Assembly: GCA_001604135.1 (NCBI GenBank) | Contig: LVAT01000010.1 | Location: forward strand, 124,001 to 188,000 | From: Clostridiales bacterium Firm_14 | GTDB lineage: Bacteria; Bacillota; Clostridia; Saccharofermentanales; Saccharofermentanaceae | Direction: 5' to 3' | Length of the DNA stretch: 64,000 nucleotides | In this document: piece by piece, positions 5,437-10,478 of the stretch | Layout of the letters: each line of letters starts with the position of its first letter | How positions within the stretch are numbered: position 1 is the stretch's first letter | Made by a program: the position numbers and the translations under genes | The notes under the pieces: model-generated | The model's database searches: none | Told to the model about the DNA's origin: nothing | The model's input: only the letters and a program-made list of their open reading frames with translations

Positions 5437-5916
5437 ATGGGCATATATATCATTGATTTATTTGCACTCCTGTTTGCCATTGGTGTGGGCTTCGGCTTAT
5501 CCTGCTGGATCTTGGGAACGCTTCTCGAAAATTCCAACAGCTTCGGTGACAACAAAGGCGACAAACGCTACTACAAAGCCTATGCCAAATTTTCCACAAG
5601 AAAAGACGGGCTGAACACTACCGAGTGCAATAATTTCTGCTACTCATACGGAAAGAATATCAGCAAAGACAGTGATGGCCCTGATGGTCAGGAACCCGTA
5701 AGAAAACTCACTGACGAAGAGATCGCCTTTTATAATCACACCTCTGTCGAGGAAGCTGCCAGGGAGCGTGAGGAACGCATCAAAGATCTTGAAGACAGTT
5801 TCAATATCTGGGAAAGCAGGAATGCCAAAGGCAGTCTCTCAGGTGTGTTCGCCAAACTTGATGAAGAGGAACAGAAATACAACCAAAAGGGCAAAAAAGG
5901 CGTCTCCAGAAGGTGA
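5437..5916 (+). CDS. Hypothetical single-pass membrane protein
   Basis: The 159-residue product has one N-terminal hydrophobic helix (about residues 4-28) followed by a charged soluble region with an acidic, helical segment (around 105-135, rich in E and R) that could form a coiled coil. I do not recognise a family. The gene follows the zinc-ribbon membrane protein with a 4-nt gap and uses AGGGGTGATC at the end of that gene as its ribosome-binding site, so translation is probably coupled. A shared function with the zinc-ribbon protein is likely from position. Its stop is close to the stop of the convergent MATE gene. Confidence 0.65.
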   Translation: MGIYIIDLFALLFAIGVGFGLSCWILGTLLENSNSFGDNKGDKRYYKAYAKFSTRKDGLNTTECNNFCYSYGKNISKDSDGPDGQEPVRKLTDEEIAFYNHTSVEEAAREREERIKDLEDSFNIWESRNAKGSLSGVFAKLDEEEQKYNQKGKKGVSRR

Positions 5917-5925
5917 GATGCCTTT

Positions 5926-7302
5926 TTATTTAACGATATTCTTGACCCAGACGCCCGACCTTACAAAGAAGTAAGCTATAAGGCACTTAACGACTTCCAT
6001 TCCGCGGACGATGGCGATCATCCAGGATACCGAAATGCCTGTATATCTGCTGAGATAATATGCGAGCGGAACTACGAGCACCCATGTATACACGCTGTCG
6101 AAGATGACCGTGATGACCGTGTTGCCGCCTGATCTCATGATGAAGTATGAAGCGTGCGTATAAGCACAGAAAGGCATCATCACGGCAGCGATCAGGATGA
6201 AATTCGATGCCAAATGACGGATATAATCCGAAGTGTTATAGAGCAGCGGGAACACAGGTGCAAGGCCGACCATTATGGCTGCGAAAACGATTCCGCATAC
6301 GACGGTGAATCTTCGCATTGCATAGGCCTTCTTCTTGGCGCCTTCGAGTTCGCCCGCACCAAGTATGTGACCCATCATGATGCCTACGGCTTCACCCATT
6401 GCAAGGAACGCCACGCCCATGAGATTCCAAAGTGTGGATTCGATGTTGATCGCAGCTACCGATACAAGGCTCCTGTATGAATAACACTGGTTGACGGTAG
6501 TCATTCCCAAAGACCATAAAGTCTCGTTAGCCATGAGGGGCAGCGCCTTTAAGAAGAACTTCATTGCCAGTTCCTTCGGCACGGTGAAATTAGTGAATGC
6601 ACCATTTATGAACGGGAAGAGCCTGGAGTTCTTTCCGGTATAGATGACGAGGATACCGAGCTCTACGAATCTTGAGATAACCGTTGCTATAGCGGCACCG
6701 ACGGCGCCGAGCGCAGGAAGTCCGAAGTGTCCGTAGATCAAAAGCCAGTTGCCTGCAAGGTTAACAAGGATCGCTGCAAGCGAAGCAAACATTGGAACCT
6801 TGGTAGAGCCTAAGTCTCTTAACGTGCCCGCATAAGCCTGCGTGATTCCGATCGGAATAAGGCTTATGAGGATGACATGCATATAGTCGACGCCGATCTG
6901 AAGAGTCTCGGCCGCATCAGCGGGATTGCCCTCGCCAAGAAGGAAAAGGTTGATGAGATTTGGTGCCCAGACAAGAAGGATCACGGTACATATCGCTGAA
7001 AGGATCGTGTTAAATACGATCTTGAAGCGGAATGTATAACGGATGCCCTCCGTATCGTCGTTGCCCTTAAACTGTGCAGTGAATATGCCGACGCCGGCAG
7101 TGGCGCCGAAGATGACGAGGTAGAAAACGAATATCAGTTGGTTCGCGATAGCAACGCCTGAGAGCGCATTGGTACCGACCCTCCCGATCATGAGATTGTC
7201 GAGAAGGTTTACGAAGTTCGAGATGCCGTTCTGGATCATCATCGGAATGGCGATCAGAAGGAGCTTCTTGATATAGGATCTGTCTTCCTTAGTACCTGTC
7301 AT
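5926..7302 (-). CDS. MATE family efflux transporter
   Basis: From ATG 7302 the protein has 458 residues, the normal MATE size, and about 12 membrane segments. The N-terminus (MTGTKEDRSYIKKLLLIA) leads into the typical first helix PMMIQNGISNFVN with the LDNLMIGRVG region. A further upstream TTG at 7437 in the same frame would add 45 residues with a first extra hydrophobic segment and no ribosome-binding site, so I reject it. Family members export cationic drugs or metabolites by Na+ or H+ antiport. The gene is divergent from the ECF sigma factor, and the 534-nt space between them holds the inverted-repeat array. Confidence 0.9.
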   Translation of the reverse strand: MTGTKEDRSYIKKLLLIAIPMMIQNGISNFVNLLDNLMIGRVGTNALSGVAIANQLIFVFYLVIFGATAGVGIFTAQFKGNDDTEGIRYTFRFKIVFNTILSAICTVILLVWAPNLINLFLLGEGNPADAAETLQIGVDYMHVILISLIPIGITQAYAGTLRDLGSTKVPMFASLAAILVNLAGNWLLIYGHFGLPALGAVGAAIATVISRFVELGILVIYTGKNSRLFPFINGAFTNFTVPKELAMKFFLKALPLMANETLWSLGMTTVNQCYSYRSLVSVAAINIESTLWNLMGVAFLAMGEAVGIMMGHILGAGELEGAKKKAYAMRRFTVVCGIVFAAIMVGLAPVFPLLYNTSDYIRHLASNFILIAAVMMPFCAYTHASYFIMRSGGNTVITVIFDSVYTWVLVVPLAYYLSRYTGISVSWMIAIVRGMEVVKCLIAYFFVRSGVWVKNIVK

Positions 7303-7486
7303 AATTAGTTTTATATATGTTCCTATTTTTGTCAGTTCGAGAATTTTAGCAAAAGAGAAATAAATAAACAATACAGATATTGGGATAATAATATCAATTC
7401 TACGGTTCGCATGGTTCGCAGAACCGGGTTTGGACAATCAAGAAGATGTCTTCCCTTATCCGGAAGTTGATGCTCAGGAATCAGTC

Positions 7487-7681
7487 GTATCTCAAATATC
7501 CCGAACGAAGAGGTTTGAGATACATTTTCAGAGCTATGTGTATCTCTTTTTGCTGCAATATATCTGTTTGAGATACATTAGTGATACTTTTGTATCTCAA
7601 ACGGCTCAAAAGCAGTCACTTAAGATACATTTTTCGATAATTCTGTATCTCAATAAGATCAATATCCGTTATTTGAGATAC
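7487..7681. repeat. Regular alternating inverted-repeat array (8 copies of a 10-nt word)
   Basis: The word GTATCTCAAA and its reverse complement TTTGAGATAC alternate strictly: + at 7487, - at 7514, + at 7540 (variant ending TTT), - at 7567, + at 7592, - at 7619 (variant CTTAAGATAC), + at 7645 and - at 7672. Start-to-start distances are 25-28 bp throughout, and the 15-17 nt between words differ in sequence. Each minus-plus pair forms a palindrome of about 36 nt with arms GAGATACA/TGTATCTC. The array fills the middle of the 7303-7836 intergenic region, between the divergent MATE and ECF sigma genes. I know no named element of this form. It could be an operator array, a structured RNA or a BIME-like element. 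Confidence 0.85.
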
Positions 7682-7736
7682 AAATGCACTATCGTGCGGC
7701 AAATACCCCAAAAACAAGGTGATGTGGCCCGTCTGA

Positions 7737-7793
7737 TATAATGAGCGAAAAATTTTTCGAAAAAAAGTGTGAAACCGGATATGCTCATTCGTC
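7737..7793 (+). promoter_or_regulatory. Putative promoter region of the ECF sigma operon
   Basis: A TATAAT box (7737-7742) is followed by a perfect 14-bp palindrome CGAAAAATTTTTCG (7746-7759). Further on, TGAAAC (7770-7775) and CGTC (7790-7793) resemble the -35 and -10 words of ECF-type promoters, which would fit autoregulation. The spacing between them is only 14 nt, shorter than the usual 16-17, so this is tentative. Confidence 0.35.
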
Positions 7794-7836
7794 TTATAGG
7801 TGAGATCTCAAATAACACACAAGGAAGGTAAGCTAA

Positions 7837-8325
7837 ATGAACAATGAAGCTGTGTTGAGACTTTTCGATACATATGCTGACGACGCGTTTCGTCTGGCAT
7901 ATTCGTATCTGGGCTCAAGACCTGACGCCGAAGATGTTGTACAGGATGTTTTCGTAAAGCTCATAAGATCCGATATCACAATCACTAAAGGCAAAGAAAA
8001 ATCATATATCCTTACCATGACCGCCAACAGGTGCAGGGACTTTCTCAAGTCCGCGGACGTAGTCTGCAAGGCGCCTTTCGAAGATGCGGCGGACGTAGGG
8101 TCAGACATCGAAATAGATGAAGATGATACGGAAATGTACGATGCTGTATCCGAACTTCCCGAAAAACTCAGAGTCGCGATACATCTTCATTACTACGAAG
8201 GCTACTCCCTGAAAGAGATAGCTGACATCCTGGAAATAGAACCGTCGGCAGTGTCGATGAGACTGACCAGGGCAAAGGAAATCTTGAGAAAACGTTTTAT
8301 GGGAGGTAGCAGCTATGCAGGATGA
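7837..8325 (+). CDS. ECF-type RNA polymerase sigma factor
   Basis: This 162-residue protein has the two-domain layout of group 4 sigma factors. Region 2 spans about residues 9-75 (LFDTYADDAFRLAYSYLG, DAEDVVQDVF) and region 4 about 104-155 (LPEKLRVAIHLHYYEGYS, LKEIADIL, SAVSMRLTRAKEIL). It would direct RNA polymerase to a small set of stress or envelope genes. A good ribosome-binding site (AAGGAAGG) precedes the ATG. The next gene overlaps its end by 11 nt and encodes a single-pass membrane protein, the usual arrangement for a sigma factor and its anti-sigma regulator. The promoter region upstream may be self-regulated. Confidence 0.93.
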   Translation: MNNEAVLRLFDTYADDAFRLAYSYLGSRPDAEDVVQDVFVKLIRSDITITKGKEKSYILTMTANRCRDFLKSADVVCKAPFEDAADVGSDIEIDEDDTEMYDAVSELPEKLRVAIHLHYYEGYSLKEIADILEIEPSAVSMRLTRAKEILRKRFMGGSSYAG

Positions 8326-9223
8326 ATACATTAAAGCTATCGAAAAGATACAGATGGATAAAGACAGGAAAATAGAAATGAGAAAAATATTAGAAAACGA
8401 AATGGCTTCAGCACCCAAGAAGCCTGCTAAGACAACACGCCTTAGCGCAGGCGCAAAAGTAGGAATCGCAGCAGCGGCAGTAACATTATCAATGGGAGCC
8501 CTTATGGCAATCCCCACAACAAGAACGGCAATCTCGGCAAGCGTAAGAGCTCTCTTCCACATGGAGATCCCTGATGGCGCAGAAGACGGATACACAAAGG
8601 ATATGGAAGACAGAGAAAGCCGCGTTGTTCCTACGGATGATGTTGACGAATCAGTAAGAGCAGAGATCGAAGCGGCAGTATCATCACAGGATCAGGCAGA
8701 AGACGATTACTTTAAGACCGTAACCGTAACTGCCGACTATTACTCCGATCCTGAGCTCAACAAGTACGCCAACTACTATGCGCAGCAGGAATACAACATC
8801 ATGGACATCAAGAAGGATTCTGAGTTCTTCGACTGCTACGGCGATCTGAAGACAAACGACTGGTATTCAGACGGATTCTTCGTAACCTATACGCTCGGAA
8901 CCAACGCTCAGCCTACTTTTGGCACGATCTATGTTTTCAAGGCAACGCCCGAACAGCTCGAAGGCTTCATGAAGAACTATTACAACGTCGTATCTTACGA
9001 GCGCAAGGAACACAATCAGGATGCCGTTGCTTATGACGGATTCTGGACAAAGAGCACCGATTCCGACGGAAATGAAGTCTATAAGGCTTCCTGGCTCGGA
9101 CCCGAACCTGAGACGAAGATCCTGCCCTCCGACTGCGCGAGATTTATGAACTTCACTCTCACATACGACGCAGCTAACCAGATCGTTATCTGCACAATTG
9201 AAGAAGGCGGCGGAATCGGCTGA
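8315..9223 (+). CDS. Probable membrane anti-sigma factor / sigma-operon partner
   Basis: The 302-residue product begins with a charged cytoplasmic helix region (about residues 1-40), then one membrane helix (about 46-66, rich in Ala, Gly and Val), then a large acidic extracytoplasmic domain rich in Tyr and Asp. No zinc-binding anti-sigma HxxxCxxC motif is present. The start codon lies inside the sigma gene (11-nt overlap), so translation is coupled, and this topology is typical of anti-sigma regulators of ECF factors. The outer domain is unrecognised and may sense an envelope signal. The assignment rests on context and topology rather than on a diagnostic motif. Confidence 0.65.
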   Translation: MQDEYIKAIEKIQMDKDRKIEMRKILENEMASAPKKPAKTTRLSAGAKVGIAAAAVTLSMGALMAIPTTRTAISASVRALFHMEIPDGAEDGYTKDMEDRESRVVPTDDVDESVRAEIEAAVSSQDQAEDDYFKTVTVTADYYSDPELNKYANYYAQQEYNIMDIKKDSEFFDCYGDLKTNDWYSDGFFVTYTLGTNAQPTFGTIYVFKATPEQLEGFMKNYYNVVSYERKEHNQDAVAYDGFWTKSTDSDGNEVYKASWLGPEPETKILPSDCARFMNFTLTYDAANQIVICTIEEGGGIG

Positions 9224-9257
9224 TATTCTTATAATTTCATAGTGCCCCATACAAAGG

Positions 9258-9287
9258 AGGCTGCCTTATCGCAAGGCAGCCTTTTTT
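9258..9287 (+). terminator. Rho-independent terminator of the ECF sigma operon
   Basis: AGGCTGCCTT (9258-9267) pairs with AAGGCAGCCT (9273-9282) around a 5-nt loop and is followed by a T-run. This is a textbook intrinsic terminator 34 nt after the anti-sigma stop codon. Confidence 0.9.
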
Positions 9288-9431
9288 GCGGCCATGATCC
9301 GGATAGCCGGTGTTTTACACCCGCCAAACGCCTTGGTTGAGTTCTCCTCAACTGCCCGTTGTTTGAAAATCTCCGGAAACAGAAATACCATATGCTTAAG
9401 ATGCATGCACAACTGATGTAGGAGATGAAAT

Positions 9432-10478
9432 ATGGCAAAGACAATAGGAAACAACATTAAGTCCTTCCGCAAGAACAAGGGCTTCACGCAGGAGGAATTA
9501 GCGGACCTTCTGAACGTCACACCTCAGGCGGTAAGCAAGTGGGAGTCGGAAAACGGACTTCCGGACACATCGATGCTGATCCCTCTGGCGCAGGTCTTAG
9601 GCGTAAGCACTGACGCGATCTTGGGCTACGATTCGCTCTCCGAGAATGAAGAGATAATCGCGAGAGTAAAAGAGACCGTAAACGGCATGAAGAACAGTGA
9701 TGAAGGAAGAGCCCAAAAGGCCCTGCGCATTGCAGAATACCTCTCCACAGAGACGACTCTCAATCCCGGGTGCTTTGAGATCATAAAGGATTATGCAAAG
9801 GAGACCGCGAACCTCAGCATGTACGCAGATCCGGTGCTCGAGAACTGCTTTCCTGATGATCAGGAAAGGATCTATAAGATCTATAAGGATGCCATAAGGA
9901 AAGGCGCTTATCTCATCGGTCACAGCAATGACAGGAACCTCATAGAGGTCACCCATTATGCGGTCGCCTGGATCTATATCCACATGAAAGACTTCGACAA
10001 TGCAAGGGCTCATATCAATGTGCTGCCGAGCATCAAGACCGGCGCGATCGCAGAGAAGATAGGAATGGAACTCACGTTCTTCGAGAGCGGGTTCGAGAAG
10101 ATGAAGGACGATATCGCTGACAGTTCGGTACTGCTTTTCGATGCGGTCGCAAGCTTCCTCAATACTATCGCGCAGGACTACGGCTGGTACGCAGAAAAGG
10201 ATGAGGCGCTCGAAGTAATCGGATGGTGCGAAGGGATAATCAAGGCATATGCATCAAGAAAGGATACCGTCGACATGAACCACTACATGAGGATCAGAAG
10301 AAGCCTTGCTTTCTTCAGGCTCGTTGCCGTAAAGAGATCGGGCGATGACGAAGGCGCGGTAAAGCTCTATAACGACTTTAAGGAAGAGATCGACATGGAA
10401 GACCTGACGGATGAACAGAAACAGACGGTAATGGATCTTCTTAATAACGACATCTCACACTACGGACAATACACTTAA
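9432..10478 (+). CDS. XRE family transcriptional regulator with helical C-terminal domain
   Basis: The N-terminal 60 residues of this 348-residue protein form an XRE/Cro helix-turn-helix (IKSFRKNKGFTQEELADLL, then TPQAVSKWESENGLPD). The rest (about 75-348) looks all-alpha, with repeated aromatic and Ala-rich helices suggesting TPR-like folding, and probably acts as the sensing or dimerisation part. GTAGGAG lies 7-9 nt before the ATG. Regulators of this shape often bind a peptide or sense metabolic state, but the ligand cannot be read from the sequence. The gene is alone, between the ECF operon terminator and a bidirectional terminator at 10501. Confidence 0.88.
   Translation: MAKTIGNNIKSFRKNKGFTQEELADLLNVTPQAVSKWESENGLPDTSMLIPLAQVLGVSTDAILGYDSLSENEEIIARVKETVNGMKNSDEGRAQKALRIAEYLSTETTLNPGCFEIIKDYAKETANLSMYADPVLENCFPDDQERIYKIYKDAIRKGAYLIGHSNDRNLIEVTHYAVAWIYIHMKDFDNARAHINVLPSIKTGAIAEKIGMELTFFESGFEKMKDDIADSSVLLFDAVASFLNTIAQDYGWYAEKDEALEVIGWCEGIIKAYASRKDTVDMNHYMRIRRSLAFFRLVAVKRSGDDEGAVKLYNDFKEEIDMEDLTDEQKQTVMDLLNNDISHYGQYT

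Follow-up and report, generated by a model that had tools for sequence, protein, structure and literature searches.

Between two divergent genes of Clostridiales bacterium Firm_14, a 10-bp word recurs eight times in alternating orientation, which raises the question of whether such an array serves the genes beside it, folds as RNA, spreads as a mobile element or acts in some other way. The window referred to below is the whole stretch of DNA that was analysed, 64,000 nucleotides of contig LVAT01000010.1 (positions 124,001 to 188,000).

An alternating word array between MATE and ECF sigma factor genes

The array occupies positions 7487-7681, with no strand assigned to it as a whole, and comprises four 37-bp inverted pairs (10 + 17 + 10) with 15-16 bp between pairs. 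Exact copies of GTATCTCAAA/TTTGAGATAC make up five of the eight words: words 1 (7487-7496) and 5 (7592-7601) on the forward strand, and words 2 (7514-7523), 4 (7567-7576) and 8 (7672-7681) on the reverse strand. The altered words are word 3 (GTATCTCTTT, 7540-7549, forward), for which a paralogous array on contig C16 has GTATCTCTTA at the same index, word 6 (reading GTATCTTAAG, 7619-7628, reverse) and word 7 (GTATCTCAAT, one change, 7645-7654, forward). The eight alternating 10-mers of the original prediction were thereby located, but three of them are altered rather than two. Successive words start 27, 26, 27, 25, 27, 26 and 27 bp apart, giving a period of about 52.7 bp; this is not a multiple of three, which speaks against a coding repeat.

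Pfam matches bore out the neighbours that had been named. A MATE transporter ORF (MatE, E 3.7e-40) lies at 5926-7437 on the reverse strand, with a true start that is probably near 7303 judging from the alignment with sister species, and an ECF-type sigma factor (Sigma70_r2 and r4_2, E ~1e-13) lies at 7837-8325 on the forward strand; both are outside the element. The array had been thought to fill the space between them, but with the MATE start taken near 7303 and the ECF start at 7837 it takes up 195 bp of an intergenic region of about 530 bp. An Rfam search of window positions 5500-9500 gave no match at E ≤ 1. The ECF leader at 7795-7836 carries GTGAGATCTCAAA, including the word-like ATCTCAAA, and this sequence is kept in 10 of 13 compared sister sequences while the remaining three have GTGAGTACTCAAA; conservation of the leader is independent of the array.

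Arrays elsewhere in the genome

The pair pattern TATCTCAA-N(12-24)-TTGAGATA has seven matches in the host genome, at six loci (two of the matches are within the window array), and its reversed control has none. A sequence-only 37-bp profile, R1, was built from 30 of the 34 pairs in eight arrays; of the other four pairs, three were set aside for a spacer length other than 17 nt and the fourth as a duplicate. At E ≤ 1, the R1 matches in the window are the four pairs of the array only, and these are among its training sequences. Against the whole genome, with 150 of 1376 first-look candidates scored, R1 gave 69 matches at E ≤ 0.1, all of them within 11 clusters and none isolated, which corresponds to at least 11 loci; the eight training arrays match by construction. 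The clusters lie on contigs C7, C9 (two), C10 (two, including the window array), C12, C13, C16, C18 and C20 (two), with those on C7, C12 and C18 being outside the training set. The C12 and C18 arrays have at least eight words at the usual spacing, and the C7 array is more degenerate. The C18 array, which was discovered through the profile only, has eight words at 28/24-29 spacing, and this layout together with the lack of isolated matches was counted in favour of a dispersed family of arrays. A further array in this genome, on C45 (L121:5687-5802), is built on the word CTATCGCAAA and represents a separate type that also occurs on C2 of another genome, G005 (L122).

The arrays lie outside long ORFs, and short ORFs (80-157 aa) overlapping some of them were taken as spurious. 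By crude ORF calls, in which ORFs overlapping arrays are excluded by construction, 45 arrays lie between convergent (8), divergent (6) or codirectional (18) genes or at a contig end (13); this tally counts the orthologous pairs L061/L137 and L101/L133 twice and scores L058 as divergent through a spurious ORF, where sister comparison shows it to be codirectional. The 13 arrays near contig or fetched-stretch ends lack a gene on one side. The assemblies are probably interrupted at such repeats, and the true copy numbers may therefore be higher. Among 17 of the 22 immediate neighbours of the 11 arrays in the host genome that were compared with Pfam, the ECF sigma factor was the sole DNA-binding protein, and there was no transposase. 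A MatE gene adjoins two of the 11 arrays, those at window 7487-7681 and L056:7031-7226, which may be coincidence.

Arrays in related genomes and at sister loci

The pattern TATCNYAA..TTRNGATA..TATC was found in 15 of 85 genomes of the genus, the host included, against 2 of 85 for the reversed control. Six genomes are rich in it: G056 (70 matches), G016 (53), G052 (37), G042 (26), the host G000 (23) and G035 (12). The remaining positive genomes have one to four matches each, and single matches are at control level; single-pair matches in G013, G054 and G066 were rejected, as there are no arrays there. Elsewhere in the order, one match each was obtained from 4 of 103 genomes (control 2 of 103). 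Five viral matches and most of 30 genome-contig matches showed no chain at array spacing and were taken as chance; the exceptions were L036 and L041, which are arrays from Bifidobacterium, and L047, a pair from G056.

A word-agnostic chain detector found 51 arrays of at least five words in 637 kb of fetched stretches, a number that is not a genome density as the stretches were picked around matches, and none in one block-shuffled control. At least two of these chains are doubtful, one of GCTGAGCCT with the look of a coding repeat (L085) and one of loose TAAAACGTG (L129). The claim that the array exceeds chance expectation was upheld by these counts and by the seven pair matches set against none, and a chance origin was rejected on the strength of the reversed and shuffled controls. 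The detector also recovers words unlike TATCNYAAA. Array types built on CTATCTTAAA/CTATCTCAAA occur in G118, G020, G033 and G050. At L130:6173-6341 in G016, a TTATCCCAA array is adjoined by six TCAGGTAAA words with intervals of 31-33 bp (period 64), and a TCAGG word resembling this type is also present in G055 (L230). Unevenly spaced AGTGGGTA words lie at the start of a fetched stretch of G056 (L107:9-251).

Sister loci show that array presence differs between close relatives. Of 13 sister ECF loci compared, drawn from 54 matching genomes, six have MATE beside ECF (ECF 92-97% and MATE ~80-84% identical), and the array is absent from the syntenic MATE/ECF region in all six; at the other seven loci, one of them with an incomplete sequence, no array was seen. 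The segment present here and absent at the orthologous site of the six sisters spans about 7395-7735 (ends approximate, no strand assigned), and no target-site duplication was identified at its ends. Upstream of pyrR (L057), all 13 fetched sisters, which are candidate syntenic sequences and include one of only 663 bp, lack TATC pairs, and one of them (L214) has a four-word chain of another word. At a third locus, upstream of a 148-aa gene (L058:6331-6777), 12 of 13 sisters were testable (L225 is incomplete and L226 has another upstream gene). TATC pairs are absent in all 12, and chains of at least four other words are present in eight by a loose detector and seven by a stricter one, against 1 of 120 shuffles for each. 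These chains (L220, L221, L224 and L227-L231) use CAACTTTT in G129, TGTTCGTC in G118, CGTACAGT in G027, G046 and G069, AAATCAGG in G055, where spacing is uneven, and TCCAGAAA in G033; G005 (L222) has no chain. The different words at this orthologous site indicate that one site has been reused with different words.

Conservation of words and spacers

Words are conserved more than spacers, subject to an upward bias in word conservation that arises because the arrays were found by their words. Between the window array and its C16 paralogue, 62 of 70 word positions and 55 of 98 spacer positions are identical (p 6.5e-6). Other array pairs of the host genome gave word identities of 0.71-0.89 and spacer identities of 0.30-0.71 in the 12 comparisons listed (the eight best and four worst). 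Four copies in G016, in six comparisons, are identical at 120 of 120 word positions each and at 161/175 to 168/174 spacer positions (92-97%, p 0.001-0.085), and orthologous arrays of G056 and G042 are equally identical in words (80/80) and spacers (116/116), with flanks at 285/299. Spacers of the host arrays are nearly unrelated to one another, with identities of 0.29 for inward spacers (shuffled 0.25) and 0.39 for outward spacers (shuffled 0.29).

Helical phasing of the arrays

A/T content is phased along the arrays. When spacers alone were analysed, each of four genome groups gave its highest A/T power at a period of 10.25-10.5 bp, with z values of 20, 32, 40 and 8 (two arrays contributed to the value of 8), and none of 200 within-spacer shuffles per group reached the observed value. 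A lesser peak occurs at 12.5 bp in G016. The TATCGTTTT arrays of G052 are an exception: their peak is at 13 bp, and z is -0.3 at 10.5 bp. The 10.5-bp period does hold for single arrays in G016 (the TCAGGTAAA type) and in G005. Much of the period is carried by two features, A/T at the pair centre and A/T beside the words. In the host, all 31 inward spacers of 17 nt have A or T at their centre; across the four groups the A/T fraction is 1.00, 0.91, 0.98 and 0.81 at the inward centre (for the last, 1.00 one base off) and 0.59, 0.29, 0.29 and 0.45 at the outward centre, where the spacer edges are A/T-rich. For the whole sequence, the 10.5-bp signal of single host arrays is modest: the eight arrays ranked 0.0009-0.074 among background windows, with 2.5% of these reaching the signal of the window array and 7% that of L119. 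The sign of the phase is the same in 8 of 8 host arrays; mirror averaging restricts each per-array phase to one of two values and so makes the phases tight, which leaves the sign as the only informative part.

The TATC cores of the words also keep regular distances. In the host genome, they are 31 bp apart in 31 of 34 inward pairs and 21 or 22 bp apart in 26 of 26 outward pairs; the averages elsewhere in the genus are 30.9 and 20.9 bp, with wider spreads of 30-33 and 18-22 bp. As 31 and 21-22 bp are about three and two turns at 10.5 bp per turn, the cores of the host arrays lie on one face of the helix. The original prediction had successive words on opposite sides of the DNA, which holds for word centres (2.5 turns) but not for the cores. 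The facing would depend on where a protein makes contact: at the word centre it would alternate, and at the core it would stay on one face.

Arrays in Bifidobacterium ramosum

B. ramosum DSM 100688 has 73 pairs of the form GTAWCTCAA..TTGAGWTAC and none in the control. Twenty fetched stretches contain 22 arrays, each of 4-10 words, in which successive starts are separated by 28 and 35 bp (by 34 bp in two cases), for a period of 63 bp. Core intervals are 31 bp in 72 of 72 inward pairs and 32 bp in 52 of 54 outward pairs, demonstrating that spacing can be fixed to the base pair. Spacer A/T in the 22 arrays again has a period of 10.25-10.5 bp (z 14.7) with the same sign in 22 of 22, but its phase is opposite to that of the rumen genus, with the A/T minimum at the pair centre, and for this reason we do not claim one common mode of wrapping. 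Crude gene calls place 11 of the arrays between codirectional genes, eight between convergent and three between divergent genes. The pair pattern occurs in 4 of 112 genomes of its genus, B. ramosum included, and the other three have two or three pairs. The common word was rejected as proof of a protein shared by Clostridia and Bifidobacterium, since Bifidobacterium was found through that word and the A/T phase is opposite.

A putative platform for DNA bending or wrapping

The reading we favour, with modest confidence, is that the window array belongs to a BIME-like family, intergenic, dispersed and apparently fast-changing, whose words are candidate half-sites for a DNA-bending or DNA-wrapping protein. 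Each 37-bp pair (GTATCTCAAA-N17-TTTGAGATAC) would serve a sequence-specific protein as a two-part site in double-stranded DNA, and pairs at fixed helical spacing, with A/T patches every 10.25-10.5 bp, could together provide a platform for bending or wrapping the DNA. Its role may lie in chromosome architecture or topology, a role already proposed for BIMEs, in mobilisation of the element, or both, rather than in control of MATE and ECF. The binding protein, the wrapping and any benefit to the cell are inferred. The Pfam comparison of 17 neighbours, which offered no candidate for the binding protein beyond the ECF sigma factor, counts against this reading. The arrays are concrete DNA baits for finding such a protein. 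The presence of different words at one locus in several species amounts to a natural experiment, and B. ramosum DSM 100688, being a named strain, is open to tests of binding, bending and deletion.

Copying of arrays between loci

The family is dispersed by copying. Copies at different loci of G016 are 91-95% identical over 408-431 bp (five of six among the comparisons listed), the host genome has paralogous array pairs such as the window and C16 arrays, and at the orthologous locus of G056 and G042 the arrays differ by stretches of whole units, by gain or loss. An 18-bp palindrome, TTTTCGAGCGCTCGAAAA, and variants of it lie at one edge of many G056 and G042 arrays (surveyed in L064, L065, L066, L101, L106, L107, L110, L112, L114, L133 and L134), and it also occurs away from arrays (L101:2811 and L133:11249). 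When edges were compared in G016 and in G056/G042, a shared edge was seen, and neither of the marks of a MITE, terminal inverted repeats and a target-site duplication, was identified. The Y1 (RAYT-type) transposase family, PF01797, has no match in the host genome, which is 99.25% complete, and this ruled out a RAYT/REP identity for G000. Across the genus 21 of 85 genomes are positive for PF01797, including the array-rich G056, G042 and G035, and it was not found in G016 (64% complete), G005 or G052 (78% complete). The proposal of a repeat-expanding mobile element is partly supported, since arrays are present or absent between relatives, copied between loci and altered by whole units.

A purely selfish element, in which the words are read only by a putative transposase or recombinase that copies the arrays and no chromosomal function exists, is a possible but rather unlikely explanation. 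The near-identical G016 copies at unrelated loci would fit it, as would the host paralogues, array-free sister loci, unit gain and loss, lineage-specific words and the many G056/G042 copies with a common edge beside TTTTCGAGCGCTCGAAAA. However, the host genome has no Y1 match and G056, G042 and G035 are the only array-rich genomes with one, no terminal repeat or target duplication was identified, the tested neighbours of the host arrays include no transposase, and words are kept where spacers have diverged, unlike in dead copies (subject to the same ascertainment).

A bolder form of the favoured DNA-wrapping reading is that the helically phased, protein-wrapping array is itself the conserved thing, while the word is rewritten between species and even within a single orthologous site, as would be expected if the word and its reader protein co-evolve fast. 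A similar architecture of 31-bp core pairs with two- or three-turn linkers is present in rumen Clostridia and in Bifidobacterium. We put this forward as a speculative and on the whole unlikely proposal.

RNA hairpin or local operator as improbable alternatives

In RNA or single-stranded DNA, the array could instead form several hairpins, or a single long one with interruptions, and serve as a terminator or as an mRNA-stability or processing element. The window array folds with z -6.1 on the forward and -6.4 on the reverse strand, none of 200 shuffles being as stable, and its words pair in nested fashion (1-8, 2-7, 3-6 and 4-5); good folding on both strands is forced by any set of inverted words. 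The spacers do not extend the stems, as in no group are they more complementary than shuffled spacers (z -3.2 to 0.6). Among mismatches of adjacent words in 45 arrays there are 229 G.T, 224 A.C and 231 others, alongside 3046 Watson-Crick pairs. Single arrays are skewed to one wobble sense (17 G.T and 0 A.C in L061, 0 and 16 in L104), which a model of single-strand pairing would fit better. Yet inference of an RNA strand from this skew was ruled out, since the wobble sense does not follow gene direction: in codirectional cases seven agree, eight disagree and three give no call. The inward partners of B. ramosum match slightly above random words at two variable positions (0.69 vs 0.54 and 0.82 vs 0.76), but among 72 inward pairs 13 have a mismatch at base 4 of GTAWCTCAA (10 A with T, three T/T), and the words thus vary almost, though not wholly, independently of their partners. 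The 10.5-bp A/T phase would have no obvious role in a hairpin. With spacers that add no pairing and mismatches that do not track genes, the multi-hairpin RNA that had been suggested is disfavoured, and we consider any such structure improbable.

A cooperative operator for the divergent MATE and ECF genes, although consistent with the location between them, with an HTH_3 (XRE-type) gene nearby (window 9432-10478) and with the MatE gene beside the L056 array, is highly improbable, as the six syntenic sisters lack the array while keeping parts of the ECF leader, and the eight-word layout recurs among ten other loci, most with different neighbours and several convergent.

Comparison with known systems

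The arrays share features with several known systems. NIME/dRS3 elements of Neisseria have a 20-bp inverted repeat around 50-150 bp segments and form intergenic mosaics; they resemble the arrays in combining short inverted repeats with variable segments, but the repeats here are 10-bp words every 26 bp. CRISPR loci also have short conserved blocks and regular spacers, whereas the words here alternate in orientation with 15-18 bp spacers, whole arrays are copied to several loci, and the window array has no Rfam match.

The closest likeness is to BIMEs, which are described as intergenic, dispersed, regularly spaced elements in alternating orientation that form hybrid arrays, vary between relatives, are bound by proteins and have been proposed as chromosome organisers (PMC2817692, PMC6379681). 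The statement in the original prediction that no element of this kind has been described overlooks them (PMC2817692); for alternating-word arrays such as these, searches of one open-access library listed no description. As in BIMEs, and BIME-2 especially, the arrays are intergenic and dispersed, with tandem units and regularly alternating conserved blocks. Binding of gyrase or IHF is a further mark of BIMEs and REPs. REP units are described as short palindromic repeats of 20-40 bp that carry a GTAG or CGTC tag (PMC3733652). In contrast, the block here is a 10-bp word without internal palindrome or such a tag, beginning GTAT, in a 52-53 bp unit whose spacers are kept mainly in A/T phase, and G000 has no Y1/RAYT match. 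As the REP palindrome and RAYT are lacking, we regard the array as working like a BIME and do not call it one; it would represent a BIME-like repeat class in a host genome without a Y1 transposase match.

In E. coli, the DNA gyrase motif seen by Topo-Seq spans 130 bp with nucleosome-like alternation of GC and AT at 10.75 bp, and is a degenerate motif whose two periodic flanks enclose a central region (-16 to 19) (PMC6379681). The arrays resemble it in their A/T period of 10.25-10.5 bp and differ in having a recurrent sequence-specific word. By this analogy, gyrase may be considered a candidate ligand of the arrays.
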